The notes below the pieces were generated by a model that did not search any database, was not told the DNA's origin, and saw only the letters and a program-made list of their open reading frames with translations. The position numbers were made by a program, and so were the translations under genes. DNA of 64,000 bases, taken from Rhodobacteraceae bacterium MED-G08. Lineage in GTDB: Bacteria; Pseudomonadota; Alphaproteobacteria; Rhodobacterales; Rhodobacteraceae. The DNA is taken from the NCBI GenBank assembly GCA_002457055.1, contig NTKT01000006.1:1-64000 (forward strand), in the 5' to 3' direction. Of this stretch, positions 801 through 15,514 are shown piece by piece (position 1 is the first letter of the stretch; each line of letters opens with the position of its first letter).

Positions 801-1979
801 CTATTCAGCAGGCTCTTTTGTTGAAACCTTACCCTTTACCTCGTCATACCAAATTGAGTGATGCTGATGGGCCCATTTCTCATCGACTTCTCCATTGCCC
901 ATAGCGCTGTAAGCACCTTCCATACCTACTGAGCCAATATAAATATGCGCTATTATCATCGCCATCATTACAAATGATACAATTGCGTGCCACGCTTGCG
1001 CTAATTGCATTTCTTGCTGCGGAGACATCTCAGTTTGTAAGGTGCCTAAGCCAAATGCTTGTGGTAAACCAGTATCATTCAAAATAGCAAACGTTTTAGC
1101 AAACATCGGTATCTCAAATGGAAATAATAGCGAAAGACCAGAGGCAGACACAGAGGCACCAAGCACAATAACCCCCCAAAATATAATTTTTTGACCAAAA
1201 TTAAATTTTCTTGCGGGCGGATGTGCATCACTAAAAATACCACCGCCCTGTTTTATCCACACCAGGTCAGTTCTATTTGGAATATTGTGATATACCCACA
1301 ACACAAAAACTATAACTAGAGCTATCATAAAAGCCCAGGAAACGTTGTTATGCACCCACTTAGAGGCAATTAAAACAACTGAATTTAGCTCTTTACCAAA
1401 ATAAGGCTGCAAGATAGCCCGCCCAAACAAACTCAGTAACCCAGTAAAACCCAAAAGAATAAAGGAGCCTGCAAGCAGCCAATGTGCAAACCTCTCAAAG
1501 GCTTTAAATCTTGTAATCGTCGTGCCAGCCATACCACCATCTACAGGTATCCTGCCTCTACCGAGATAAAATAGTAAAAGCGCTGCTATAGTACCAAGGA
1601 GTAGGAAGCCGCCATACGTGCGTAATGGACCCTCTCTAAATTTCCACCAAGGCATGCCAGCACTTTGAATTAATACAGGTCCCAAATCACCGTTAGAAGC
1701 ACTTTGCGCATTTGCGGATCCATATCGTATAGCTCTCCATAATTCTGGATCAGATGCTCCGCCCAAGGTACCCAGTTGATCTGTTATTCCCTTAGCGGAG
1801 CCGGGTCCACCGGTACTATTTCGACGATCGTTATCATCTACAGACAATCCCTTTTGCCTCGCCATTATGTCTTCCAAAGTTTGCGCACCACCTGTGGAAG
1901 CTCTATCAACTTTTTGTTCCTGTGCAACTAATGGAAACGCCAGAAAAAATACCAATATGAAACTCAATACTGAACGCAT
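801..1979 (-). CDS. fdhC: Formate dehydrogenase gamma subunit (cytochrome b)
   Basis: A 392-residue membrane subunit of a respiratory formate dehydrogenase, passing electrons from the Fe-S subunit to quinone through b haems. An N-terminal signal peptide (about residues 1-19, ending near VAQ) precedes a hydrophilic periplasmic stretch, then about five membrane helices from residue 120 onward (for example FLLLGTIAALLLFYLG). The RFKAFERFAHWLL segment carries a His typical of the cytochrome b561/FdoI fold, with further His residues in YHN, AQAWHAIVSF and IAHIYIG. It is last of the three core subunits, in the order alpha, beta, gamma. The long N-terminal extension compared with E. coli FdoI is usual for the alphaproteobacterial branch. 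A small 41-residue ORF follows. Confidence 0.9.
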   Translation of the reverse strand: MRSVLSFILVFFLAFPLVAQEQKVDRASTGGAQTLEDIMARQKGLSVDDNDRRNSTGGPGSAKGITDQLGTLGGASDPELWRAIRYGSANAQSASNGDLGPVLIQSAGMPWWKFREGPLRTYGGFLLLGTIAALLLFYLGRGRIPVDGGMAGTTITRFKAFERFAHWLLAGSFILLGFTGLLSLFGRAILQPYFGKELNSVVLIASKWVHNNVSWAFMIALVIVFVLWVYHNIPNRTDLVWIKQGGGIFSDAHPPARKFNFGQKIIFWGVIVLGASVSASGLSLLFPFEIPMFAKTFAILNDTGLPQAFGLGTLQTEMSPQQEMQLAQAWHAIVSFVMMAMIIAHIYIGSVGMEGAYSAMGNGEVDEKWAHQHHSIWYDEVKGKVSTKEPAE

Positions 1980-2061: not shown

Positions 2062-2655
2062 TTAGCCGCCTTTTTGCTCGTAAGCTGTTCCCCAGCCCCA
2101 AGCACCTGAGCCAAAACCACGCGCAACTACTCGCTCACGATACACAGAAGCGACGATATCGCCATCTCCCGCAAGTAGCGCTTTAGTTGCACACATTTCA
2201 GCACAAACAGGAAGCTTACCCTCAGCAATTCGGTTACGACCGTATTTAGAGAACTCCGCTGACGAATGGTTCTCTTCTGGACCACCAGCACAGAATGTAC
2301 ACTTATCCATTTTACCACGAGACCCAAAATTTCCTGCTTGAGGAAATTGCGGAGCTCCAAAAGGACAGGCATAAAAGCAGTATCCACACCCAATACACAA
2401 ATCCTTGGAATGTAATACAACACCTTCTTCATTTTGATAAAAGCAGTCCACCGGACATACAGCCATACACGGAGCATCGGAACAATGCATACATGCAACT
2501 GAAATAGAACGCTCTCCAGGATTACCATCTTGAATAGTAACCACCCTTCGGCGGTTAATACCCCAGGGCACCTCGTGCTCATTCTTACAAGCAGTTACAC
2601 AAGCATTACACTCGATGCAGCGCTCGGCATCACATAAAAACTTAGCTCTTGCCAT
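2062..2655 (-). CDS. fdhB: Formate dehydrogenase beta subunit (4Fe-4S ferredoxin type)
   Basis: A 197-residue iron-sulfur subunit linking the molybdopterin subunit to the cytochrome. It starts with Cys8 and the cluster CIECNACVTAC (Cys13, 16, 19, 23), followed by CMHCSDAPCMAVCPVDC, CIGCGYCFYACP and a final CTFC/CAEMC set, enough for four 4Fe-4S clusters as in the FdnH/FDH3B family. Unlike E. coli FdoH it has no C-terminal transmembrane helix, so it must dock on the gamma subunit by surface contacts. It is 12 bases from the end of the alpha gene and about 80 bases before gamma, in one operon. Confidence 0.93.
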   Translation of the reverse strand: MARAKFLCDAERCIECNACVTACKNEHEVPWGINRRRVVTIQDGNPGERSISVACMHCSDAPCMAVCPVDCFYQNEEGVVLHSKDLCIGCGYCFYACPFGAPQFPQAGNFGSRGKMDKCTFCAGGPEENHSSAEFSKYGRNRIAEGKLPVCAEMCATKALLAGDGDIVASVYRERVVARGFGSGAWGWGTAYEQKGG

Positions 2656-2667
2656 ATCTTATCCTCC

Positions 2668-5565
2668 CTACGCTGACCAGATTTTACAAAGCGTTGCTTT
2701 GGTTTCTTGCATTTGAGTAACAGAGTCATAGCCATAAGTTTGAGCAGTATTTGAGCTCTCACCAAGTACGTATGGATCTGCACCTTTTGGATACTTGTCA
2801 CGCAAGTCCTCACCCTGGAAGTGTCCTCCAAAATGGAACGGCATGAACGCGACCCCCTCGCCGACGCGATTTGTAATCATGGCCATAACCTTGACTTTCG
2901 CGCCTTCAGGACCTTCAACCCAAACCTGAGCACCATCGCGGACCCCCAAATTATTGGCGTCCCGAGGGTTTATTTCAACGAACATATCCTGTTGAAGCTC
3001 AGCCAACCATGGATTAGACCGCGTTTCATCACCCCCACCTTCATACTCAACCAGTCTACCTGACGTTAGTATCATAGGATATTCCTTACTAAAGTCCTGC
3101 TTTTGAATTGAAGCATAAAGAGTAGGAAGTCTGTAAAACTTACGATCTTCATAAGTTGGATAATCTTCCACGAGATCCCGTCTGTTTGTATAGAGGGGTT
3201 CTCTATGCAGAGGAACAGGATCAGGGAAAGTCCAGACAACTGCTCTAGCTTTCGCATTTCCAAACGGAGCACAACCATGCTTAATGGCAACCCTCTGGAT
3301 ACCACCGGACAAATCTGTCTTCCAGTTTGTCTTTGGCCCAGCAACGGCGTCGATTGCGGCACGTTCGTCCGCAGTTAAATCGCCATCCCAACCTAAATCC
3401 ATTAGCATCTGCATTGTGAATTCAGGATAACCATCTTGTAGTTCTGCTCCAGGGTTTGAAACACCTTCAGCCAGAAGATTATCACCATCTCGTTCGACAC
3501 CGAAACGTGCTCTAAAGGTCAATCCACCTTCAGCTACAGGTTTACTCATGTCGTACAGGTTTGGAGTTCCGGGATGGTTCATCTCAGGAGTTCCCCAGCT
3601 CGGCCATGGAAGTCCATAATAATCACCATCTGCTGGGCCACCATTAGCGCGAAGCGTTGTACGGTCGAATGTATGCTGGTTCTCCATATGCAATTTCAAA
3701 CGCTCCGGAGATTGCCCTGTATACCCGATAGTCCACATACCGCTGTTAATCTCGCGGAGGGTATCCTCTATATTAGGTGTAACCCCGTCGGCCTCAATCT
3801 TGATATTTCTGAAAAATCTATCATGAAAACCAAACTTTTTAGCAAACAAACCTATGATTTCATGGTCTGTCTTACTTTCAAATAATGGATCGACAACTTT
3901 ATCACGCCATTGAATTGAACGGTTAGAAGCTGTAACTGAACCATAAGTTTCGAATTGAGTACATGCAGGAAGCAAGTATACACCATCAGTTCGATCACTC
4001 AAAACAGCTGAAACAGTAGGATATGGATCAATAACAACTAGCATGTCTAGTTTTTCCATTGCCGTTTTCATTTCAGTCATTCGTGTTTGAGAGTTCGGAG
4101 CGTGGCCCCAAAGAACCATCGCGCGTACACGGTCAGGGTTATCCATATTATTTGGATCTTCTAGAACGCCGTCTATCCAGCGCGAAACTGGAATTCCGGT
4201 AAGGTTCATTAGGTTTTTATCCTTACCATCTGCTCCTTTAACCGTAGCAAATTGATTAGAAAGCCAATCGAAATCTTCACCCCAAACGCGAGCCCAATGA
4301 CCCCAGGCGCCCTTAGACAAACCATAATAGCCTGGCAATGTATGAGATAAAATACCTAAATCAGTTGCACCTTGCACGTTATCGTGACCTCGGAAAATGT
4401 TAGTACCACCTCCGGTTGTACCCATGTTTCCTAATGCTAACTGAAGCACGCAGTATGCACGCGTATTGTTGTTACCATTCGTATGCTGCGTTCCGCCCAT
4501 ACACCAGATAACTGTTCCAGGGCGATTGTTTGCCATAGTTCTAGCAACACGCTTAAGCTGAGAACCCGGAGTACCCGTGACTCTTTCAACTTCCTCAGGT
4601 GTCCACTTAGCAACCTCTTCCTTGATTTGGTCCATACCCCAAACGCGTGTTCGGATAAATTCCTTATCTTCCCAACCGTTTTCGAAAATATGCCACAAAA
4701 TGCCCCAAATAAGCGCTACGTCTGATCCAGGTCTGAAGCGAACATACTCGTCAGCGTGGGCTGCCGTTCTTGTGAACCTTGGGTCACAAACAATCAGAGG
4801 TGCGTTATTTTGTTCCTTCGCCTTCATTACATGGAGCAATGAAACAGGATGTGCTTCTGCCGGATTACCGCCTATAATGAAGATTGCACGTGAATTGTGA
4901 ATGTCATTGTAGGAATTGGTCATGGCGCCGTAGCCCCATGTATTTGCAACACCGGCAACTGTGGTTGAGTGACAAATTCGCGCCTGGTGGTCTACGTTAT
5001 TTGTACCCCAATAAGCGGCAAATTTTCTGAATAGATAGGCTTGTTCGTTATTTACCTTTGCAGAACCTAGCCAATAAACACTATCTGGGCCACTTTCTTG
5101 ACGGATCTTCATCATGCCGTCGCCAATTTCATCTATGGCCTGTTCCCAGCTAATTCTAATCCACTCGCCACCCTCTTTTTTCATAGGATATTTAAGTCTT
5201 CTTTCGCCGTGCGCATGCTCTCTTACAGCAGCGCCCTTGGCACAATGTGCGCCCAAATTGAATGGACTATCCCAGCCAGGCTCTTGGCCAGTCCAAACTC
5301 CATCCTGCACTTCAGCTACAACCGTGCAGCCTACCGAACAGTGAGTACACACTGACTTAATAGTTTCTACCGACTGATTAGCAGCTGATGCTGCTGCAGC
5401 CTGAGTAACAGCGCCACCTGTTGCGGCTATTGCTGTCAATCCTCCGATTGCCAAACCTGAACCACGTAAAAAATCACGTCTATCTACAGATTTATTGGCT
5501 ACTTCTGAAAGGATACTTGTCCTTTGGGAGCGTCGCGCAACCCCGTTGGTCTTTTTCCTAAGCAT
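2668..5565 (-). CDS. fdhA: Tat-exported formate dehydrogenase alpha subunit (Mo/W-bis-MGD)
   Basis: A 965-residue catalytic subunit that oxidises formate to CO2, probably on the periplasmic side. The twin-arginine signal is RRDFLRG at residues 29-35, followed by a hydrophobic stretch to about residue 60. A 4Fe-4S site uses Cys73, Cys76, Cys80 and Cys108. The metal ligand is Cys198 in RICHS, with His199, so this is a cysteine rather than a selenocysteine enzyme and reads through as one ORF. The molydopterin-binding C-terminal domain begins near residue 820 (ILTSGRLVEYEGGGDE). Downstream come beta and gamma, upstream the Tat mini-protein and the TorD chaperone. The tungstate importer in the neighbouring module suggests that the metal may be tungsten, an inference. 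Confidence 0.95.
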   Translation of the reverse strand: MLRKKTNGVARRSQRTSILSEVANKSVDRRDFLRGSGLAIGGLTAIAATGGAVTQAAAASAANQSVETIKSVCTHCSVGCTVVAEVQDGVWTGQEPGWDSPFNLGAHCAKGAAVREHAHGERRLKYPMKKEGGEWIRISWEQAIDEIGDGMMKIRQESGPDSVYWLGSAKVNNEQAYLFRKFAAYWGTNNVDHQARICHSTTVAGVANTWGYGAMTNSYNDIHNSRAIFIIGGNPAEAHPVSLLHVMKAKEQNNAPLIVCDPRFTRTAAHADEYVRFRPGSDVALIWGILWHIFENGWEDKEFIRTRVWGMDQIKEEVAKWTPEEVERVTGTPGSQLKRVARTMANNRPGTVIWCMGGTQHTNGNNNTRAYCVLQLALGNMGTTGGGTNIFRGHDNVQGATDLGILSHTLPGYYGLSKGAWGHWARVWGEDFDWLSNQFATVKGADGKDKNLMNLTGIPVSRWIDGVLEDPNNMDNPDRVRAMVLWGHAPNSQTRMTEMKTAMEKLDMLVVIDPYPTVSAVLSDRTDGVYLLPACTQFETYGSVTASNRSIQWRDKVVDPLFESKTDHEIIGLFAKKFGFHDRFFRNIKIEADGVTPNIEDTLREINSGMWTIGYTGQSPERLKLHMENQHTFDRTTLRANGGPADGDYYGLPWPSWGTPEMNHPGTPNLYDMSKPVAEGGLTFRARFGVERDGDNLLAEGVSNPGAELQDGYPEFTMQMLMDLGWDGDLTADERAAIDAVAGPKTNWKTDLSGGIQRVAIKHGCAPFGNAKARAVVWTFPDPVPLHREPLYTNRRDLVEDYPTYEDRKFYRLPTLYASIQKQDFSKEYPMILTSGRLVEYEGGGDETRSNPWLAELQQDMFVEINPRDANNLGVRDGAQVWVEGPEGAKVKVMAMITNRVGEGVAFMPFHFGGHFQGEDLRDKYPKGADPYVLGESSNTAQTYGYDSVTQMQETKATLCKIWSA

Positions 5566-5927: not shown

Positions 5928-6578
5928 TTACGCAGATTTCTCCGCACTCATTCGAAACGCTTCAACCTCTATTTCCATGAATAGCCTGCCGACTGAACCG
6001 ACAGACGCATACAAAATAGAGGACTCCGCTGCTTCCAAATCTGTAAAAAAATGTCCTGCCCATGGACGAATATGTTTATCGAAAAACTTTAATTGCTTGC
6101 CTAATGAGACAGGCGAACCAAAGCGCCCAACAATCAGAGCAGCCATCATTTCCATCAAGCTAGCGATATTATCTTCTGGCTCATAAACATTACTCGCGCG
6201 GGAAAGGCCCGAATTAACCATATCTCGCCTTAGAGCAGCTAAGGGCTTCTCATTCAAAAAGCCTGTTAAATAGTAACTCGCATAAGGTAAAAGTTCACCA
6301 CGGCCAACTCCGATGAACAGTTTATTGAATTCAATTTCCACTGAGTTAGGCTTGGAAACCTTGGAAACCCGCTTGAGGGTTTCGACGGCCTTGCCTAACT
6401 CGGATTGATCACCACTGAGTTGCGACATTTGCTCCAATAGAATTTCGTCGGCTGGACGAGCCAAAACAAGCCCAAGAAAATTATACATATCAGCTCTACT
6501 ACGGTCTTCTTGAGAGACATCCGCCTTGTGTTTCAGGTCCATTCTTTCGTCCATTTCTATTCTATCCTGCCTGCTCAC
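5928..6578 (-). CDS. TorD/DmsD-family redox enzyme maturation chaperone
   Basis: A 216-residue all-helical protein of the TorD family. Such chaperones bind the Tat signal of a molybdoenzyme and hold it back until the cofactor is inserted. The YNFLGLVLARPADEIL start at about residue 32, the YASYYLTGFLNEKPL segment near residues 94-108, and the EPEDNIASLMEMMAALI block, close to the family E-PxDHhh motif, support the call. It overlaps the preceding DUF3306 gene by four bases, so it is translationally coupled. The likely client is the fdhA product encoded just downstream. No other Tat molybdoenzyme is present in the window. Confidence 0.88.
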   Translation of the reverse strand: MSRQDRIEMDERMDLKHKADVSQEDRSRADMYNFLGLVLARPADEILLEQMSQLSGDQSELGKAVETLKRVSKVSKPNSVEIEFNKLFIGVGRGELLPYASYYLTGFLNEKPLAALRRDMVNSGLSRASNVYEPEDNIASLMEMMAALIVGRFGSPVSLGKQLKFFDKHIRPWAGHFFTDLEAAESSILYASVGSVGRLFMEIEVEAFRMSAEKSA

Positions 6579-7243
6579 GCCGCTGCTCCGCCATAATCAA
6601 ATTTCATTCGCTGGCGAGGCACAGGGATGACCGGCTCCTCTTCGATGAAAACGGAAGCTTCAGAACTTTCGATTATCTCTTGGTCGGAATTTTGCGCATT
6701 CGACTTAAGTGGTAGCTCTGACAGGTCATTAATGCTTCTTGGGTCTTCGCTGACTTCTACATTTTCGGCTTCCTCAGTTTCTCTTGAAGCCTCAGCTAAT
6801 AGCTCATCATCTGCGACTTCGGGAGGCTTATCATTCTGCTTTTCTTGCTCTTTTCGAGCCAACTCCTCGATGTGCTTCAACATACCTTTACCAACCTGAT
6901 ACGTTGTCTCAACAAAACCAGCTCCAACGGCCGCATCTGTGAAATCTTCTCCGTAATCAACCAGACCATCTACATTTGCGAGCAACGGATTAGATAGCCA
7001 AAGTTTCTTCAAAGCCCTTCTCCTGAGACGCTCAGGAACAACTTCTTTCATGAAGACCTTAAAATCATCTCCCGGCTCGAGTGTATCAGGATCAGGCAGA
7101 CCAAGCTCTTTCAGAACCTCCTCATCAGTTTTTACATCAAGCTCGACCTGTATCTCCGAAGCTCGCTTTATCTCCGCCTGACGTCTTTCCTCTTCAAACT
7201 CTTCTTTTACAGCTGATTTGCGTCTGCTCCAAAAATCACTCAT
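6575..7243 (-). CDS. DUF3306 domain protein
   Basis: A 222-residue soluble, very acidic protein. The start MSDFWSRRKSAVKEEF and the block VPERLRRRALKKLWLSNPLLANVDGLVDYGEDFTDAA (cited in pieces: LRRRALKKLWLSNP and VDGLVDYGEDFTD) are the DUF3306 signature. The middle (about residues 120-205) is low-complexity, rich in Glu and Asp, and probably disordered; the tail ends in RMKFDYGGAAA. Family members are found beside Tat-type formate dehydrogenases with DUF3305 and a 4Fe-4S protein, but no activity has been assigned that I know of. Four-base overlaps with both neighbours indicate strict co-translation. Confidence 0.85.
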   Translation of the reverse strand: MSDFWSRRKSAVKEEFEEERRQAEIKRASEIQVELDVKTDEEVLKELGLPDPDTLEPGDDFKVFMKEVVPERLRRRALKKLWLSNPLLANVDGLVDYGEDFTDAAVGAGFVETTYQVGKGMLKHIEELARKEQEKQNDKPPEVADDELLAEASRETEEAENVEVSEDPRSINDLSELPLKSNAQNSDQEIIESSEASVFIEEEPVIPVPRQRMKFDYGGAAA

Positions 7244-7809
7244 TGGATGAACCCCACTTTTCTTGAGGAGGGGGCGCGGTAAACATCAGATATCTGCTCA
7301 ATCCGAGGATCACCGATTCCATCTTGGTGAATGTCTACCCTTTTTTTATCTCTTTTGCGTTTTACAAACGCTTCTTCAACGTGATGATTCTCTATAAAAT
7401 CTCGGACCCATGCGATTAAACCGACCGGCATAGGCACCTTTTCAACAATTTCTTCACCACTATCAGTATAATCTTGAGCTTCGTATGGAGAAGCCGTTAC
7501 GAGCAAAACTTCCAGAGGAATTTCAGCTCCAACTTGCTCTCTCAGGACAACATAAACACTTGGAATTTTGGAGGCGAGGCCAGTCATATAGGCTTCTGTT
7601 TCAGCACCGTGAAGTTCAATATTTACTGTGGAAAAGTGATATTCAGTGCAATCTCCCTCAGTTCTCAAGATACGATTTTCTGCCGGTCCGGCACCAGGAA
7701 GCACAGCACTAACTGCCCATGACCATTCAGACCATTTTGTCACTCCTGGTGTCTTTCTTACCACCACCCCAACTGGCATGGATTGGTATCGCTTTGGGTT
7801 GAAGTACAC
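7240..7809 (-). CDS. DUF3305 domain protein
   Basis: A 189-residue soluble protein with the DUF3305 signature: MPVGVVVRKTPGVTKWSEWSW near the start (residues 11-31), then GETEAYMTGL-like and PSVYVVLR segments, and a VTASPYEAQDYTDSGEEIVEKVPMP region (cited in part). The tail is rich in Lys/Arg (KRKRDKKRVD). It is the first gene of the minus-strand formate dehydrogenase operon and overlaps the DUF3306 gene by four bases. Function is not established; conserved linkage to formate dehydrogenase suggests a part in cofactor insertion or enzyme assembly, which is inference. A candidate promoter lies at 7877-7905. Confidence 0.85.
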   Translation of the reverse strand: MYFNPKRYQSMPVGVVVRKTPGVTKWSEWSWAVSAVLPGAGPAENRILRTEGDCTEYHFSTVNIELHGAETEAYMTGLASKIPSVYVVLREQVGAEIPLEVLLVTASPYEAQDYTDSGEEIVEKVPMPVGLIAWVRDFIENHHVEEAFVKRKRDKKRVDIHQDGIGDPRIEQISDVYRAPSSRKVGFIQ

Positions 7810-8084: not shown

Positions 8085-10049
8085 TTGGTTGATAAAATTG
8101 AAAAACTGCTGCTTTGCGATTGCGAAGGATCGCAAAAAGTTGACAGTGCAGCCTTAGCAGACGCAACTGGCCTAAAATGTTCAAAGGTATACTCTGAATT
8201 ATGCATAAAAAATTTAGACATAGTTGAGAAAGCTATTCAATCAGGTGACACAGCTATTTGCTGCGAACAACAATCTAGTATTTTTGATGAAATTGCAGCC
8301 GATATTGATAAAGACCCACCGATAGTATTTGACATAAGAGATAGGGCTGGCTGGACCGTCGATAAGAAAACATTGGTGCCAAAAATGGCCGCTCTGACAG
8401 CTGAAGCATTGATGGAAAAACCTATCCATAAGACAAAAGACGTTACATCGCAAGGTCGGTGCTTGATCTTTGGTGATTGTGAATCGGTTCTTGAAGCAGC
8501 TCAAATTTTACAAGAAGCTTTATCTGTTACGGCATTGCTTGATCCCAAAGATGGCGATGAAATTTTAAATGTTAATGGTTTCGACGTAGTGCTTGGCAAG
8601 ATCAAGAACGCCAAAGGTAGTTTTGGAAATTTTACTATTGTTTTTGATAACTTGCAGGAATTAGTTCCTTCTGGGCGCGGACCCTTCAAATGGACACACG
8701 CACAAGATGGAGCAACATCATCCTGCGATATAATACTAGACCTTTCCAAAGATGATGCATTGTTTCCAGCTTCGGAGAAAAGAGATGGATATATTCGTGC
8801 AGACATTGGTCAAAAAACCAAATTTACTTCAGCAATTCTAAATGCATCACAGCTGCAAGGGACATTTGAAAAAAGTTTATACATCAAATACGAGGCTTCT
8901 GTCTGCGCGCACAGTCGAGCCGAGAAACCTGCTTGTTCTAACTGCATAAACGTTTGTCCAACAGGAGCTATTCTTTCGAGTAGTGAAACCGTGACCATTG
9001 ACCCAGGCATTTGTGCTGGATGCGGAGCTTGCGCTGCTGTTTGTCCATCTGGGGCTATCGAGTATGAGCCAGGACCAATTTCTTGGATTTTAGCTCGGTT
9101 GGCTGTGATTCAAAAATATTATAAAGACGCGGGTGGAAAAAATCCTTTTCTTTTAGTTCACGACGGCCATGGAAGAGAATTGATTTCTTTTTCGGCCAGA
9201 TACGGAGACGGCCTTCCGTCAAACGTAATTCCGATGCAATTAGATGCGATCGCCACATTTGGTCATGCTGAAGCACTCGCAGCACATGCGTCCGGCTTTG
9301 AAGAAGTATTTCTACTTACAGGCCCAAAATCTGATACAGACACAATTTTAGGCGAAGCAGAAATAGCAAATGCTATATTTGAGAACGCCCTTCGAGTAGT
9401 TGAGGTAAACGATCCATTAGAACTCTCCAATATATTTGAGGGGCTGGCTAAGCGAGCTAATAAAACTCAACTAAGCAAACCAATGGGAAGCAGGCGGCAA
9501 GTTACGAGGGTAGCGTCCAAAACACTAAACCCAGAAAAAGAAATTTTGCCCTTACCCGATCATGCACCGTACGGCGCCGTTCTTCTCGATAATGACAGTT
9601 GCACCCTTTGTTTATCTTGTGTCTCTCTATGTCCTTCTGGAGCTTTGGGAGAAAACCCAGACTTACCACAACTTCGATTTCAAGAAGATGCATGTTTACA
9701 GTGCGGATTATGCTCAAACATTTGCCCTGAAAACGCAATCTCTTATGAAAAACGCCTTAATCTATCAAACGCCGCTCTGGAGCAAACCATTCTAAAGGAA
9801 GAGGAGCCGTTTGCTTGTATAGAGTGCGGCAGCTTGTTTGGGGTAAAATCATCCGTTGAGCGCATAATTGATAAGCTTGCAGGAAAGCACTCAATGTTTT
9901 CAAATTCAGATGCAACAAAACTAATTCAGATGTGTGATGATTGTCGGATTAATGCCCAGTACCATTCGGACAATAACCCGTTTGCCGGCGGTGAGCGCCC
10001 AAGAGTGCGGACAACAGAAGATTACCTTTCAAAGCGCAAAGATCACTGA
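8085..10049 (+). CDS. Poly-ferredoxin (4Fe-4S) protein linked to formate dehydrogenase
   Basis: A 654-residue cytoplasmic protein with at least four 4Fe-4S motifs in two pairs: around residues 284-315 (CSNCINVCPTGAI and CAGCGACAAVCPSGAI) and around 506-550 (CTLCLSCVSLCPSGAL and CLQCGLCSNICPENAI). It also has an N-terminal CDC motif and a tail CIECG/MCDDC set at about 578-619 that may bind another cluster or zinc. The start is TTG at 8085 with AAGGG nine bases before it. Proteins of this build sit beside DUF3305/DUF3306 in alphaproteobacterial formate dehydrogenase loci. It may supply electrons or sulfur for cofactor maturation, or carry electrons from the enzyme; neither is shown. It converges on the cytochrome gene with a seven-base overlap. 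Confidence 0.82.
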   Translation: MVDKIEKLLLCDCEGSQKVDSAALADATGLKCSKVYSELCIKNLDIVEKAIQSGDTAICCEQQSSIFDEIAADIDKDPPIVFDIRDRAGWTVDKKTLVPKMAALTAEALMEKPIHKTKDVTSQGRCLIFGDCESVLEAAQILQEALSVTALLDPKDGDEILNVNGFDVVLGKIKNAKGSFGNFTIVFDNLQELVPSGRGPFKWTHAQDGATSSCDIILDLSKDDALFPASEKRDGYIRADIGQKTKFTSAILNASQLQGTFEKSLYIKYEASVCAHSRAEKPACSNCINVCPTGAILSSSETVTIDPGICAGCGACAAVCPSGAIEYEPGPISWILARLAVIQKYYKDAGGKNPFLLVHDGHGRELISFSARYGDGLPSNVIPMQLDAIATFGHAEALAAHASGFEEVFLLTGPKSDTDTILGEAEIANAIFENALRVVEVNDPLELSNIFEGLAKRANKTQLSKPMGSRRQVTRVASKTLNPEKEILPLPDHAPYGAVLLDNDSCTLCLSCVSLCPSGALGENPDLPQLRFQEDACLQCGLCSNICPENAISYEKRLNLSNAALEQTILKEEEPFACIECGSLFGVKSSVERIIDKLAGKHSMFSNSDATKLIQMCDDCRINAQYHSDNNPFAGGERPRVRTTEDYLSKRKDH

Positions 10050-10783
10050 TGTTTTACAGGTTCACCTAAATCTGCGGGAGGGATATTTTGCACATATGCA
10101 ATTATCGCCTGGAGTTCGTTTAGATCTAATTCGATCGGCACAATTGGCGCCGGTCTACTATCATCGAATGGTTCAGTCACATCGGGTATTATTGTAAATG
10201 CTGGATGAGGCCGAAGGAGATAAAAACCACTGAACCTCAAATCCCAATCATCAAAAGTTCTTAGAGCAAAGAATGACGGCGTTGATCCGATAGAGTTTTT
10301 ACGTCCTTTTTCGACAACGTGACACCGCGCACATTTTTGCTGAGATTGCTCCAAGCCTAGTTTTGCATTACCAGAAAGTCTAACTTGCCTTGTCGCCTCT
10401 TCTTCAATTTCTAATGAAACAAAAACGGGCGCATCATTTTCTTGAATAGATGAAATAGTTTTCTTACCAACGTCACTTTTTAACCAATTAAAAAACCTCT
10501 GTGAGTAGTTATTTTCTTCGATAATATCAATTTTAAATACTATATCACCCATCTGAAGAAACGCCCGACCTGAATTCTTCGAAATTGCGATCATTGCAGA
10601 GTCGGGAACTAATTTAACCGATATTTGAGTTTTTAACTTGAAGCGAGGAATAATATAATCGAAAAATCCGGAGGCAATCAACGAATTCGGGGCGCTTATT
10701 GTGACAATGCGTTCTTCGGCATTTGCATAGCTGAGGCTTGTAACCAGCAAAATAACAGAGCATATATATTTTACTATTCGCAT
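10043..10783 (-). CDS. c-type cytochrome with an N-terminal solute-binding-like domain
   Basis: A 246-residue exported protein: a signal peptide to about residue 22 (SYANA), an N-terminal domain of about 120 residues, and a C-terminal monohaem domain with CARCH (Cys151, Cys154, His155). No Met follows the haem motif, so the sixth ligand is not the usual one; His in LLRPHPAF is a candidate. The N-terminal domain resembles the first and last parts of the tungstate-binding protein encoded nearby (IASGFFDYIIPR against NSGLSDVLLPR; NWLKSDVGKK against NWLTSTTAKS), as if the central lobe had been lost. Convergent with the poly-ferredoxin gene, seven-base overlap. Likely a periplasmic electron carrier. 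Confidence 0.75.
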   Translation of the reverse strand: MRIVKYICSVILLVTSLSYANAEERIVTISAPNSLIASGFFDYIIPRFKLKTQISVKLVPDSAMIAISKNSGRAFLQMGDIVFKIDIIEENNYSQRFFNWLKSDVGKKTISSIQENDAPVFVSLEIEEEATRQVRLSGNAKLGLEQSQQKCARCHVVEKGRKNSIGSTPSFFALRTFDDWDLRFSGFYLLRPHPAFTIIPDVTEPFDDSRPAPIVPIELDLNELQAIIAYVQNIPPADLGEPVKHQ

Positions 10784-10861
10784 GAAAACCTTAAATGGCT
10801 GTAATTGGCTATGTTTAAGATTGGTATTCGAATTAAAAAGCGAGTAATTTGGGAGAATAAA

Positions 10862-11047
10862 ATGAACGATGATTTCAATATGTCAATGCGTAAATTTTTG
10901 AAGCAGGTGGGAGTAACCTCTCAAAAAGCCATAGAAGATGCATTGCGCGATGCAAATAATGGTGAATATATAGTAGAGGCCAAAATTACTATTAAAGATA
11001 TTGGGATGGAGCATACGGTTTCCGGCACAATTAAAAATGGAGATTAA
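10862..11047 (+). CDS. DUF6494 family small protein
   Basis: A 61-residue protein, MNDDFNMSMRKFLKQVGVTS at its start, with a C-terminal beta-rich half (YIVEAKITIKDIG and HTVSGTIKN). It fits the DUF6494 family of small alphaproteobacterial proteins. I chose the ATG at 10862 because GGGAG lies at 10851-10855 at ideal spacing; a longer in-frame start at 10805 would add 19 residues with no support. The stop is three bases before the GTG of the mrp gene. Function unknown; genomic linkage to Mrp and to tungstate transport is the only hint. Confidence 0.78.
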   Translation: MNDDFNMSMRKFLKQVGVTSQKAIEDALRDANNGEYIVEAKITIKDIGMEHTVSGTIKNGD

Positions 11048-11050
11048 AAA

Positions 11051-12112
11051 GTGGCTCTTACCAGAGAAAGTGTTATCGAGGCATTAAAGACCATTCAGGG
11101 CCCGAAGGGTCAGGATATCGTAACTGGCGGAGAAGTGCGAGCTCTTGATGTTGGTGAAAAAGATGTGCGTTTTGTTTTAGAAATTGATCAGGCGCTTGCC
11201 GATGAATACTCCAAAATTAAGGACGCATCTGAAGTTGCACTTAAAAAACTTGGTGCCAGCGAAGTTTCTGTAGTGCTTACGGCACATGCTTTACAAAAAG
11301 CCCCTCCTGACTTGAAGCCAAACAGAAAATCGGAACCAAAGGGTCCAGAAAAAATACCTGGGGTAGATCGCGTTTTAGCAGTCGCGTCAGGAAAAGGTGG
11401 CGTCGGCAAATCTACTGTAAGCTCTAATCTTGCCTGCGCTCTAGCAGCCCAAGGCAGGCGCGTTGGTCTGCTGGATGCCGATGTTTATGGGCCATCCCAA
11501 CCAAGGATGCTTGGAGTCTCAGGAAGGCCTTCCAGTCCTGATGGAAAAACTATCCTCCCACTTCGGAACCACGGCGTTACTATGATGTCAATCGGCCTGA
11601 TGACAAATGAAGACCAGGCAGTTGTATGGCGCGGTCCAATGTTAATGGGGGCACTCCAGCAAATGATGATGCAGGTTCAGTGGGGAGCTTTAGATGTTTT
11701 AATTGTTGACTTGCCACCAGGAACTGGTGATGTGCAAATGACCCTCGCCCAGAAAACAGAAGTAAGCGGTGCAATAATCGTTTCTACTCCTCAAGACGTT
11801 GCTCTCATTGATGCCAGAAAAGGCATCGATATGTTCAACCAGCTTAATGTACCCATTCACGGTATGATTGAAAATATGTCTACTCACATATGTCCTAAAT
11901 GCGGGCATGAGGAACACGTGTTTGGACATGGTGGCGTGCGAAAAGAAGCTGAGAAAATAGGTGTGCCCGTACTTGCAGAAGTGCCGCTACATCTAGATAT
12001 AAGATCTGCCTCTGACGGTGGGGTTCCAATAGTAGTGTCTGACCCAAGCTCCCCACAAGCTAACGTTTTTAACGCATTAGCAAAATCAATGATCGAACAA
12101 GGGCAAGCTTGA
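11051..12112 (+). CDS. mrp: Mrp/ApbC-type iron-sulfur cluster carrier ATPase
   Basis: A 353-residue P-loop ATPase that carries and hands over Fe-S clusters. The N-terminal MIP18/DUF59 domain (about residues 1-85) is followed by the deviant Walker A loop GKGGVGKST near residues 115-123, the switch DVYGPSQPRM, the LIVDLPPGTGD motif and the bridging cluster motif CPKCG near residue 280, with VFGHGG after it. GTG start at 11051, three bases after the DUF6494 stop. It overlaps the TTG/ATG region of the next gene. Its place between formate dehydrogenase accessory genes suggests service to those Fe-S rich proteins, although Mrp usually serves many clients. Confidence 0.93.
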   Translation: MALTRESVIEALKTIQGPKGQDIVTGGEVRALDVGEKDVRFVLEIDQALADEYSKIKDASEVALKKLGASEVSVVLTAHALQKAPPDLKPNRKSEPKGPEKIPGVDRVLAVASGKGGVGKSTVSSNLACALAAQGRRVGLLDADVYGPSQPRMLGVSGRPSSPDGKTILPLRNHGVTMMSIGLMTNEDQAVVWRGPMLMGALQQMMMQVQWGALDVLIVDLPPGTGDVQMTLAQKTEVSGAIIVSTPQDVALIDARKGIDMFNQLNVPIHGMIENMSTHICPKCGHEEHVFGHGGVRKEAEKIGVPVLAEVPLHLDIRSASDGGVPIVVSDPSSPQANVFNALAKSMIEQGQA

Positions 12113-12114
12113 CA

Positions 12115-12822
12115 ATGTCTTTAGTGTTTCCCCCTCTAATGCATGGTTACGAGTTGGACAAACCTGGTCATGACCCATTTGAGGTAGCTAAAAGCAAGGC
12201 AATCCAAGGGGTTGAGGCTGGTCTTGTGGTCTATAATCTTACTCATGAGGCTCTAAGAGCCACTTTTATTTTTACTCCAGAAGTTTCACTCAACCAAGCA
12301 ATGATTATGTTGCCAATATGCGGTATTGGCTTTCAAAATGCTCTCGGGGCTCTGGCTCCCCCTGAAGTTGCTGTTCACTTGCTTTGGAGTGGAGGTGTTT
12401 TAATCAATGGAGCTCGTTGTGGGAAATTAAGGGTTTCAGCAAACCATCAAGATCCAACAAAGGTACCAGATTGGCTTTGTGTTGGGTTAGAATTAGACTT
12501 ATGGCCAGCTTCCGAGAATATGGGGGAAACTCCAAACGAAACAGCACTATACGCTGAGGGATGCTCAGAGGTTGACGCTTCGACCTTGCTCGAAGCTTGG
12601 GCGCGCCATACTTTAAACTGGTTGACCAGATGGGAAGCAGATGGGGCAAGAACGGTTCACAACGAGTGGCGCGGCCTTGCACATGGGATTGGAGAAAAAC
12701 AAACCTACATGAAAGATTCAAACGCAGTCTTTATGGGAGTGGATGATAATTTTGGTATGTTGTTAAGAGATGAAGACGGAACGACATCAAACATACCTTT
12801 AACAGCCTTACTTGAGGAATAA
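12115..12822 (+). CDS. Biotin/lipoate-protein ligase-like protein (DUF4444), active site eroded
   Basis: About 235 residues with the fold signature of the biotin/lipoate ligase family: HLLWSGGVLINGARCGKLRVS (shown here as LLWSGGVLINGARCGKL) matches the strand-turn that carries KWPNDV and KxxGIL in true ligases, and a C-terminal domain (about residues 170-235) matches DUF4444. The Gly-Arg rich nucleotide loop GRGRxGR of active ligases is absent and the catalytic Lys of KWPND is replaced by Ser/Gly. The protein is therefore probably not a standard ligase. ATG at 12115 is preferred to the in-frame TTG at 12109; both overlap or abut the end of mrp. It may bind a protein or cofactor in the formate dehydrogenase module. 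Confidence 0.72.
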   Translation: MSLVFPPLMHGYELDKPGHDPFEVAKSKAIQGVEAGLVVYNLTHEALRATFIFTPEVSLNQAMIMLPICGIGFQNALGALAPPEVAVHLLWSGGVLINGARCGKLRVSANHQDPTKVPDWLCVGLELDLWPASENMGETPNETALYAEGCSEVDASTLLEAWARHTLNWLTRWEADGARTVHNEWRGLAHGIGEKQTYMKDSNAVFMGVDDNFGMLLRDEDGTTSNIPLTALLEE

Positions 12823-12824
12823 AT

Positions 12825-13304
12825 ATGAAATTAGCTAGAGCCATTCATTTCGATGAAAGTGATACACGTGTATACAGTAACTCTGCTCGTACCGGTGAAT
12901 GGTGTGTTTCAGGTGGGTTCGAATTTTCTAATTGGTCGGAAGCTGATTTAGACGGAAAGGCTAAGCAAGCTTTTTCAAATGGATGGTTTGGACTAGAAAC
13001 TTCAGGGCGAGTAACCTTTGTTGCTGTTGCAAAGGTTACCTCACAAGAAGTATCACATCTTGAAGAGCTTTTAGCTGATCATTTTGTAACATACTATGGC
13101 GCTCCTAGTAAGGAGCTTGCACTCCCCGTAGCAAGTGCTGAATTGCAGGCTATGGCTGATCTTTGTGACGAACATGACGACAATACTTTGTTGGTCGTTT
13201 CTCGAGAACTGACCGAAGCAGGAGTAAAAGAGACATTTCGAATAATAGATCCTGAAGACGCCGGGCTGGATCAATTTGCTATTCATGGAAGCCTCGATGA
13301 ATGA
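12825..13304 (+). CDS. DUF6505 family protein
   Basis: A 159-residue soluble protein beginning MKLARAIHFDESDTRVY, with GEWCVSGGFEFSNW and a later GWFGLETSGRVTFVAVA segment that match DUF6505, a family seen beside the DUF4444 ligase-like protein in alphaproteobacteria. It starts two bases after that gene and ends overlapping the first codons of tupB, so the three are one transcription unit. No catalytic motif can be named. Function unknown. Confidence 0.78.
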   Translation: MKLARAIHFDESDTRVYSNSARTGEWCVSGGFEFSNWSEADLDGKAKQAFSNGWFGLETSGRVTFVAVAKVTSQEVSHLEELLADHFVTYYGAPSKELALPVASAELQAMADLCDEHDDNTLLVVSRELTEAGVKETFRIIDPEDAGLDQFAIHGSLDE

Positions 13305-14001
13305 TATATGGTACGGTATCTTACAGGCGTGTCAGCTTATATACACTCTAGACCAAGATTTAATTGAAATCTCCGTAAGATCTCTTCAAGTTACACTTTC
13401 AGCCTTGGTGATAAGTTCATTATTTGCATTGCCACTTGCAGCAGTTTTAGCTGTAAAAAGATTTAAATTTAGACGATTTATAATAGCACTCCTGAACGCT
13501 CTGATGGGACTTCCACCTGTAGTAGTAGGCCTAATAGTATACATACTTTTATCTCGTTCAGGACCTTTTGGCGCTTTGGACTTACTCTACACAACAGCAG
13601 CCATGGTTATTGCACAGATAGTTATAATAACGCCATTGATTACCTCAATTGCACACCAGTCGTTACGAGAATTATGGTCAGAATATCATGACCTGCTGAT
13701 TTCTATGAATACCTCTCACATACAAAGAATTAAGACATTGTTATGGGATGCCCGCAGAGCACTTTTAACAGCTTCCCTGGCGGGGTTTGGGCGTGCAATA
13801 GGAGAAGTTGGTGCAATTATGATCGTGGGTGGCAATATAGATAACGCGACGCGCGTACTAACGACAGCAATAGCGCTAGAAACATCTAAAGGCGATTTTG
13901 CATTAGCGCTCGCATTGGGATTTGTTCTTATTCTAATTGCTATTGCGTTAAACTTGGCGACGCATTGGCTTAGTAAAACAGAGAGAGAGGGCCGTTGGTA
14001 A
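13297..14001 (+). CDS. tupB: Tungstate ABC transporter permease
   Basis: About 234 residues with five to six membrane helices. It has the inner-membrane permease pattern of the TupB/ModB group, including the EAA-like loop near FGRAIGEVGAIMIVGGN (residues about 162-178) which contacts the ATPase. I place the start at ATG 13297, which has GGAAG seven bases before it and overlaps DUF6505 by eight bases; in-frame alternatives exist at 13276 and 13285. The stop TAA shares its last A with the ATG of tupC. With the binding protein downstream it makes a complete tungstate importer, which fits the metal need of formate dehydrogenases in this window. Confidence 0.85.
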   Translation: MNDIWYGILQACQLIYTLDQDLIEISVRSLQVTLSALVISSLFALPLAAVLAVKRFKFRRFIIALLNALMGLPPVVVGLIVYILLSRSGPFGALDLLYTTAAMVIAQIVIITPLITSIAHQSLRELWSEYHDLLISMNTSHIQRIKTLLWDARRALLTASLAGFGRAIGEVGAIMIVGGNIDNATRVLTTAIALETSKGDFALALALGFVLILIAIALNLATHWLSKTEREGRW

Positions 14002-14705
14002 TGTTCCCTCTAATTGCAGAAAATTTAGTCGTGGAGTTCAATGGAAAACACATTCTTGGCCCTCTAGACCTTACTGTTAACAAAGGCGATATTTCGTTAA
14101 TTCTTGGGCCTAATGGATCTGGGAAAACCACTCTTTTGAAAAGCTTACATGGCATTATGAAACTAAAACGCGGCTCAATAAAATGGTCTTGTTCAGATAA
14201 GTCTAGCATGCAAAAACAAATGTTTGTTTTCCAAACCCCAATCATGCTCCGCAGATCAGTTCTTGAAAACTTAACTTACCCACTTTTACTTCGAAAAGTT
14301 TCAAACTCAAAAGTACATAGATTAGCCACTGAGTGGGCAGAAAAGATTGGTTTAAAAGAAATCATGCAACTTTCCGCAACCAGATTATCAGGTGGAGAAA
14401 AACAAAAATTAGCGCTTGCGCGAGCATTAATTACAGAACCAGAAATGTTATTTCTAGATGAACCCAGCGCCTCATTAGACGGCAAAACAACCGTAGAGAT
14501 TGAGAATCTGCTAAAAAGTTGCACAAAAAACGGAACAACTATTATGATGTCGACGCATGATATTGGTCAAGCAAAACGATTGGCAAAAAATATCCTCTTT
14601 TTGAATAAAGGAATTTTAGAAAGCAATCAATTAGCCGAGACTTTTTTTCTTGAGCCAAAGTCTCCGAATGCCGAAAAATTTATAGCAGGTGAGATACTTG
14701 AATGA
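14001..14705 (+). CDS. tupC: Tungstate ABC transporter ATP-binding protein
   Basis: A 234-residue ABC ATPase with Walker A GPNGSGKTT (about residues 33-41), the signature LSGGEKQKLALARAL (about 131-145), Walker B MLFLDEPSASLDG and the switch His in MSTHD. There is no C-terminal TOBE/molybdate regulatory domain, which ModC usually has and TupC usually lacks. Start ATG at 14001 overlaps the tupB stop (TAATG); an in-frame TTG at 13995 is less likely. Ends with an ATGA overlap with tupA. Confidence 0.88.
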   Translation: MFPLIAENLVVEFNGKHILGPLDLTVNKGDISLILGPNGSGKTTLLKSLHGIMKLKRGSIKWSCSDKSSMQKQMFVFQTPIMLRRSVLENLTYPLLLRKVSNSKVHRLATEWAEKIGLKEIMQLSATRLSGGEKQKLALARALITEPEMLFLDEPSASLDGKTTVEIENLLKSCTKNGTTIMMSTHDIGQAKRLAKNILFLNKGILESNQLAETFFLEPKSPNAEKFIAGEILE

Positions 14706-15514
14706 TGGGATTTTTTAAGCTAATTTGTGTGCCAATTTTTATACTTATTGCGACAACTTCTATTGCGGATAATATTAAGTTGGCTGTAACCACTTCATTT
14801 AATAATTCTGGTTTAAGCGACGTACTGCTGCCAAGAATTAAGTCTGATATTGGCTTGAACATTAAGTTACTTGTGGTGGGAACCGGGCAAGCACTCCGAC
14901 TTGGAGCTGCAGGTGATGTTGATGCAATTTTAGTGCACTCAGAAAAAGCCGAAGAGCAATTTGTTACAGATGGATATGGCCTTCACAGGCGAGAAATTAT
15001 GTACAACGACTTCGTAATCATAGGGCCAAAACATGATCCAGCAATTGTTAGAAATTCTAAAAGTGTTCATGAGGCATTAACTTTAATAAGCCAAAACTCC
15101 GCCTCGTTTGTAAGCAGGGGCGATGATAGCGGAACCCATAAAATGGAAGTTGGTTTATGGAAGTATAGTGGTCTTGATCCAGACAAATTTGGGAAATGGT
15201 ATAAGTCTGTCGGGTCAGGGATGGGAGCTTCATTGAACGTAAGCGCGAGCTTGGGTGCATACATTCTTTCTGACAGAGCAAGCTGGTTAAACTTCAAAAA
15301 TAAATCTGATTTAGAGATTTTGTTTGAAGGGGATAAGCTTTTATTCAATCAATACTCTTTCATTCCTATAAACCCAAGTCTTCATACACATGTAAACTAT
15401 CACTTAGTAGAAAAGCTCGAGAATTGGCTAACCTCTACGACAGCTAAAAGTATGATAAACGGCTACGAAATTGATGGACAAGCCTTGTTTAAATTTAATG
15501 CTACGCCAAAATAA
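14702..15514 (+). CDS. tupA: Tungstate-binding periplasmic protein
   Basis: A 270-residue periplasmic solute-binding protein with a signal peptide (residues 1 to about 22, ending TTSIAD). Diagnostic segments are TTSFNNSGLSDVLLP near the start (TTTSTxxSGL pattern in TupA), GTGQALRLGAAGDVDAILVHS (given in part), YNDFVIIGP and SRGDDSGTHKME, the last an oxyanion-contacting loop shared by TupA and WtpA-like proteins. Tungstate over molybdate is inferred from these TupA-type motifs and the absence of ModA motifs. Translationally coupled to tupC. Last gene of the set; no clear terminator was seen after it. Confidence 0.87.
   Translation: MMGFFKLICVPIFILIATTSIADNIKLAVTTSFNNSGLSDVLLPRIKSDIGLNIKLLVVGTGQALRLGAAGDVDAILVHSEKAEEQFVTDGYGLHRREIMYNDFVIIGPKHDPAIVRNSKSVHEALTLISQNSASFVSRGDDSGTHKMEVGLWKYSGLDPDKFGKWYKSVGSGMGASLNVSASLGAYILSDRASWLNFKNKSDLEILFEGDKLLFNQYSFIPINPSLHTHVNYHLVEKLENWLTSTTAKSMINGYEIDGQALFKFNATPK

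Follow-up and report, generated by a model that had tools for sequence, protein, structure and literature searches.

Results

Genes of the locus

The window, that is, the whole analysed stretch of 64,000 nucleotides, contains a formate dehydrogenase (fdh) locus, a tungstate transport cluster (tup) and, between them, a gene for an unusual c-type cytochrome. The genes are listed below with the evidence for each assignment.

804..1979, minus strand: fdhC, membrane subunit with a long N-terminal extension (synteny)
2065..2655, minus strand: fdhB, iron-sulfur subunit (synteny)
2668..5565, minus strand: fdhA, catalytic subunit of formate dehydrogenase, with a Tat-type leader (sequence; synteny)
5928..6578, minus strand: TorD-type chaperone (domain matches)
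6575..7243, minus strand: DUF3306 protein (domain match)
7240..7809, minus strand: DUF3305 protein (domain match)
8085..10049, plus strand: multi-4Fe-4S protein, 654 aa (open reading frame, domain match, synteny)
10043..10783, minus strand: half-TupA lobe joined to a Met-less c-type haem protein, CDS of 246 aa (list of open reading frames; homologues)
11051..12112, plus strand: presumably an Mrp-type ATPase, in the divergent operon (sequence; conserved in synteny)
12109..13304, plus strand: LplA-like ligase (12109-12822) and DUF6505 protein (12825-13304) (domain matches, synteny)
13276..14001, plus strand: tupB, permease (domain match)
13995..14705, plus strand: tupC, ATPase (domain match)
14702..15514, plus strand: tupA, intact two-lobed tungstate-binding protein of the same cluster (Pfam and NCBIfam matches)

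The multi-4Fe-4S gene, whose product has several 4Fe-4S domains, is convergent with the cytochrome gene and overlaps it by 7 bp. The extension of FdhC comprises roughly 110 residues after the leader and before the first clear membrane helix, and is a possible periplasmic docking site. The divergent operon encodes an 80-aa protein, the Mrp-type and LplA-like (PF16917 plus DUF4444) proteins and the DUF6505 protein; this block (10805-13304) lies beside fdh in 73-79 of 80 loci, is present in other families too, and looks like an uncharacterised maturation set for formate dehydrogenase.

Domain layout of the cytochrome

The 246-aa product of the cytochrome gene is divided as follows.

10718..10783, minus strand: putative N-terminal signal peptide, residues 1-22, MRIVKYICSVILLVTSLSYANA (judged by eye; predicted helix 2-19)
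10574..10717, minus strand: first segment of lobe A, residues 23-70, homologous to the TupA N-terminus (profile alignments, PDB matches, predicted fold)
10520..10573, minus strand: junction, residues 71-88, site of the missing TupA lobe B (profile alignment; transitional homologue L160)
10415..10519, minus strand: second segment of lobe A, residues 89-123, homologous to the TupA C-terminus, NWLKSDVGKKTISS (profile alignments, predicted fold)
10376..10414, minus strand: fast-evolving linker, residues 124-136 (21% mean pairwise identity)
10046..10375, minus strand: haem domain, residues 137-246 (Pfam match, homologue alignment, tree)
10319..10333, minus strand: CARCH haem attachment motif, residues 151-155 (sequence; CxRCH in 91 of 91 homologues)
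10196..10207, minus strand: HPAF stretch, H193 to F196, with Phe where related cytochromes carry the ligand Met (PHPxM)

The first segment of the lobe has SAPNS in place of the TTTS of TupA and contains, at residues 46-52, a PRF(S/K/T)LKT motif specific to the cytochrome family. At the junction, the transitional homologue L160 retains the remainder of lobe A. The curated libraries Pfam and NCBIfam leave the first domain unrecognised apart from one weak TupA match, the only NCBIfam hit on the protein (residues 93-122, E 0.078). An artefact of frame or assembly was considered and rejected, as full-length frames occur in hundreds of genomes, and 382 relatives were recovered by a pattern scan.

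The N-terminal domain is lobe A of TupA

By eye, the earlier note had aligned the first part of the protein with the start of TupA and a later part with the C-terminal helix of TupA. Profile-profile comparison confirms both alignments: in hhalign, residues 23-135, represented by an alignment of 91 homologues, match TupA in two separate collinear stretches at both ends of the chain, TupA 22-67 (E 2.2e-6) and 233-268 (E 8.6e-8), and the homology is confined to these two terminal segments. All controls for this comparison, 20 column shuffles and a reversed alignment, had Prob values of 2.1 or less. A separate comparison of 11 cytochrome homologues with eight TupAs gave Prob 96.2. An HMM of the lobe, run unfiltered at E<=1, matched 97 half-TupA cytochromes and 50 of 50 TupAs, and nothing else, among 16,972 open reading frames taken from the fetched loci; conversely, a TupA HMM found 96 half-TupA cytochromes and no other non-TupA frame. 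Chance similarity is rejected by the column shuffles and by this background. Searched against all PDB sequences, the family profile gave as its top three matches the TupA structures 3muq, 3lr1 and 5my5. In a class-wide genome search, many genomes also contained genes of TupA size that the same profile matched in two parts, query residues 5-73 followed by about 88-130.

The predicted fold gives the same picture. AlphaFold2, run with 81 sequences, modelled the lobe with pLDDT of about 94-97 over residues 31-110 and the haem part poorly. In VIA-align, predicted residues 24-126 superimpose on the crystal structure of Desulfovibrio alaskensis TupA (5MY5) with Z 14.0 and 1.8 Å over 103 residues, spanning chain residues 2 to 251; further TupA and ModA structures follow with Z of 10-11.6. 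Structure prediction thus identifies a TupA-like lobe at the place where the earlier note had suspected one. Foldseek with the whole model lists 5my5 at just E 3.2e-3, a weak score that probably reflects the absence of one lobe and the poor model of the haem half. In D. alaskensis TupA, lobe A consists of residues 2-76 and 201-251 and lobe B of residues 91-200, and the likely oxyanion ligands are TTTS in lobe A and, opposite, R118, T124 and D170 (PMC5517513), which by these boundaries belong to lobe B. Since the cytochrome domain matches both ends of the TupA chain, the same boundaries make it lobe A minus lobe B. We regard its homology to TupA and its identity as this lobe as practically certain.

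The earlier note was also right that the ligand-binding centre is missing. Lobe B is absent together with R118, T124 and D170, and the TTTS equivalent (VTTS or STTS in TupA) is replaced in 91 of 91 members, in most by APxA and in the others by related sequences. The two-lobed ligand cleft typical of TupA and other type II solute-binding proteins is therefore lacking, lobe A standing alone, and this lobe is not expected to bind tungstate. The PRF(S/K/T)LKT motif is nearly fixed in the cytochromes and variable in TupA. In the model it ends a helix whose start adjoins the old TTTS site, so that the motif itself probably points away from the former cleft. Five lobe residues, P46, R47, K51, W100 and G106, are invariant in the 91 sequences.

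A haem domain with Phe at the Met ligand position

The CARCH motif and the lack of a downstream Met in the window protein, both pointed out in the earlier note, are family traits: CxRCH is invariant in all 91 aligned full-length members, and all of them have Phe (F196) at the position of the usual Met ligand, so that the PHPxM of Met-ligated relatives reads PHPxF. Met is also absent from all haem-only relatives examined. Besides CxRCH, virtually no variation occurs at S167, P169-F171, P192, H193 and F196; when the full and haem-only forms are taken together, invariance is limited to the haem motif, SxPSF, one Arg and PH. A CxxCH motif in a protein with a signal peptide, the latter judged by eye, places the protein among c-type cytochromes. 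It lacks the Met axial ligand of class I cytochromes c, there being no Met in the haem domain of the window protein, and its score against Pfam PF00034 (class I cytochrome c) is 16.4 bits, below the gathering cut-off of 21.3. The model of this domain, built without haem, is of low confidence (pLDDT 74.7), and Foldseek lists cytochromes 2cxb and 8gth for it only at E about 6.

H193 is the sole invariant His after CxxCH in the 91 members. It may serve as the sixth haem ligand, or the haem may be five-coordinate; the conservation of this His does not decide its role, because the same residue is found in Met-ligated relatives.

Conserved neighbourhood and co-occurrence

Gene order was compared around the best 80 of the 382 relatives, a sample biased to close ones. 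The usual order is DUF6505, LplA-like, Mrp and 80-aa protein genes and, divergently, the cytochrome gene, the convergent 4Fe-4S gene, DUF3305, DUF3306, TorD and fdhA. The 4Fe-4S gene adjoins the cytochrome gene in nearly all loci (78 of 80; the remaining two end at contig edges), and fdhA is present in 74, the exceptions being mostly short contigs; in 31 of the 80, tupA is found no more than about 8 kb away. The survey of homologues proposed in the earlier note finds the same fusion widespread in Rhodobacterales and in Stappia/Roseibium, at one conserved formate dehydrogenase locus. The GTDB record of one such Rhodobacterales locus (L062) is titled Enemella evansiae, an actinobacterium, and is probably mislabelled or contaminated. 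Each of two genomes (G342:C13 and G052:C48) has two TupA-like genes about 1 kb apart.

Among 61 related genomes, the full or haem-only cytochrome occurs in 13. DUF3305, the marker for fdh, is present in 12 of these, and the remaining one is truncated by a contig end. Congeners without fdh that keep TupA have no cytochrome, so the cytochrome tracks DUF3305, not TupA. In the window's own genus the marker is found in only 2 of 16 genomes, both with the cytochrome; the remaining genomes have no cytochrome, though most keep TupA. Four genomes with the marker (G021, G028, G032 and G060) are without the cytochrome. Since some fdh loci do without the cytochrome and three relatives without the lobe, neither is strictly essential to formate dehydrogenase. 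Conserved neighbourhood and co-occurrence nevertheless agree in marking the cytochrome as an accessory component, and we hold its membership in the fdh system to be very probable. Of the two roles proposed in the earlier note, that of a partner of formate dehydrogenase is supported at the level of genomic context, namely neighbourhood and co-occurrence.

Six haem-only homologues (L143, L145, L197, L147, L026 and L162) have none of the queried fdh and tup genes in the fetched 12-20 kb, the stretch of L147 beginning at a contig end; the haem domain may have a role outside the fdh locus as well.

Origin of the fusion and selection on the lobe

Haem-only versions occur in other Alphaproteobacteria; none was found outside this class among 398 sampled genomes of the phylum, a thin sample. 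In a haem-domain tree (115 rows, 111 columns, weak forks; rooted for reading on Met-ligated relatives), the haem-only forms of other families branch first, and the presence of the lobe needs three changes. Our reading of this weakly resolved tree is one gain of the lobe followed by about three losses (L139; L026 and L162). L139 occupies the identical syntenic spot without a lobe and keeps the loop and part of the tail of its clade, which is consistent with secondary loss.

Two loci show forms of particular value for the history of the fusion. In L160 the whole of lobe A is retained, with the helix that follows the third strand; the protein matches TupA HMM positions 15-101 and then 232-264, and even here the HMM path skips 102-231. 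In L198, an fdh locus, a haem-only gene (8165-8542) lies directly upstream of tupB (8605), tupC and tupA on the same strand, with a gap of 62 bp, an arrangement that shows how a haem protein and pieces of TupA could meet. A full-length TupA-haem fusion was considered as the ancestor and rejected: none occurs in 295 genomes of the family and 385 of the class, where the longest form is L160 with lobe A only.

Over 20 non-overlapping, independent close pairs, the lobe has a pooled dN/dS of 0.26 and the linker one of 0.36, against 0.18 in the haem domain. These pairs replaced a first estimate over all pairs, which was near saturation and gave 0.87 for the linker. The lobe is maintained under purifying selection. 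Of the two elements, the haem protein, which belongs to the fdh locus, is older and better conserved; the lobe is a later addition that is under selection, lacks a ligand site and can occasionally be dispensed with.

Discussion

Sequence, predicted fold, the transitional form and the haem-only relatives lend strong support to the suggestion of the earlier note that a solute-binding scaffold was cut down and fused to a haem domain. Given an older haem protein at the fdh locus and an added, selected lobe without a ligand site, docking on or regulation of a periplasmic partner is the simplest account. We propose, with a probability of roughly 0.55, that the protein is a periplasmic accessory cytochrome of the formate dehydrogenase system in which a TupA lobe is reused as a docking or regulatory module. 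The starting point would be a small Met-less c-type haem protein already present at the locus in other Alphaproteobacteria; the formate dehydrogenase system concerned probably depends on tungsten. In the Rhodobacterales line this protein would have gained, once and at its N-terminus, the first and last segments of TupA that form lobe A, without lobe B. The lobe has kept its fold, as predicted, and remains under selection, while it has lost the oxyanion site and acquired the nearly invariant PRF(S/K/T)LKT. The product would be exported to the periplasm and loaded with haem, which may exchange electrons with formate dehydrogenase or condition the enzyme or its assembly. Conservation and neighbourhood suggest that the lobe would place the haem on a partner, most likely the formate dehydrogenase complex; for docking on this particular complex we see slightly less than an even chance.

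The other candidate partner is the permease. If the lobe still docked on TupB, the cytochrome would sit at the tungstate importer, where its redox or ligand state could modulate uptake or where it could compete with TupA. The binding protein that serves the importer is itself built from lobe A and one further lobe, TupA is encoded in 78 of 80 lobe-bearing genomes, and the gene of the haem-only ancestor can lie in one operon with tupBCA. This association is confounded, however: TupA is present in 16 of 16 fdh-marker genomes of the set of relatives, as a tungsten enzyme would need, and because TupA or TupABC accompanies the fdh locus almost always, co-occurrence could not separate docking on TupB from docking on formate dehydrogenase. 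The minority of loci with a nearby tupA and the related genomes that have TupA without fdh and lack the cytochrome also count against the permease, as does a lobe-bearing genome (G622, a fragmented assembly) in which neither TupA nor a close TupB was seen, and we judge it an improbable partner. The second role offered in the earlier note, an oxyanion sensor whose lobe would bind tungstate or molybdate and signal through the haem, drew on the homology to a tungstate-binding protein and the position beside tupABC and formate dehydrogenase. It is very improbable, since the lobe has lost TTTS and all of lobe B, and the TupA binding site is the cleft between the two lobes.

It is improbable that the lobe is a functionless relic and the haem domain alone matters. 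It is dispensable in L139, L026 and L162, and its dN/dS lies somewhat above that of the haem domain; yet the pooled value is low, five residues never vary, a motif of the PRFSLKT type has been newly fixed, and the lobe persists across Rhodobacterales and Stappia/Roseibium. Less easily set aside, but still unlikely, is that the haem is a five-coordinate, ligand-binding or sensory group and no electron carrier. The Phe for Met in every full-length member and the missing Met of the haem-only relatives fit such a haem. Against it, H193, invariant in both forms, could be the sixth ligand, although this His also precedes Met in Met-bearing relatives and its conservation is not specific evidence. Returning to the accessory cytochrome, a bolder version of our proposal, which we rate as rather improbable, would make the half clamshell a stand-alone docking module that couples the non-Met haem to formate dehydrogenase or to the TupB importer, and so links the redox state of formate oxidation to enzyme assembly or metal supply.

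Receptors and enzymes are known that reuse solute-binding proteins, as a rule with the two-lobed clamshell intact. Here a lone lobe, derived from the transporter that is the probable metal supplier of the enzyme encoded nearby, has become a fixed part of an accessory cytochrome of that enzyme. Both domains are of known kinds; a limited search of the open-access literature found no description of their fusion. The fusion spans a large group of abundant marine bacteria in which ancestral, transitional and secondarily reduced forms are extant, and it points to a so far uncharacterised part of the formate dehydrogenase system of marine bacteria. Should the lobe prove to act in docking, it would illustrate how a binding protein can be cut in half and put to new use.

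Comparison with known systems

With TupA (NF041772; PDB 5MY5, 3LR1 and 3MUQ), the cytochrome shares the fold of lobe A, its sequence signature and both chain termini, joined within residues 24-126; it differs in having no lobe B, hinge strand or oxyanion ligands and in the attached haem domain. The small Met-ligated c-type cytochromes with PSF...PHPxMP (for example L174, L177 and L178) align with its haem domain at CxxCH, PSF, PHPx and the C-terminal helix, whereas the half-TupA cytochromes have Phe for Met, a longer loop between PHPxF and the C-terminal helix and, in the Rhodobacterales clade, an added PADLG tail. The haem-only cytochromes of alphaproteobacterial fdh and tup loci (L139, L140, L141, L142 and L198) have a homologous haem domain, likewise Met-less, and are encoded at the same locus or one like it, but have no TupA lobe; they appear to represent the ancestral form except for L139, an apparent loss. 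The formate dehydrogenases of sulfate reducers have cytochrome c3-type subunits, in which a haem c protein is likewise genetically tied to a periplasmic tungsten formate dehydrogenase; in contrast to these, the cytochrome described here has one haem, while the c3-type subunits have no solute-binding-protein domain, and the folds are presumably unrelated.
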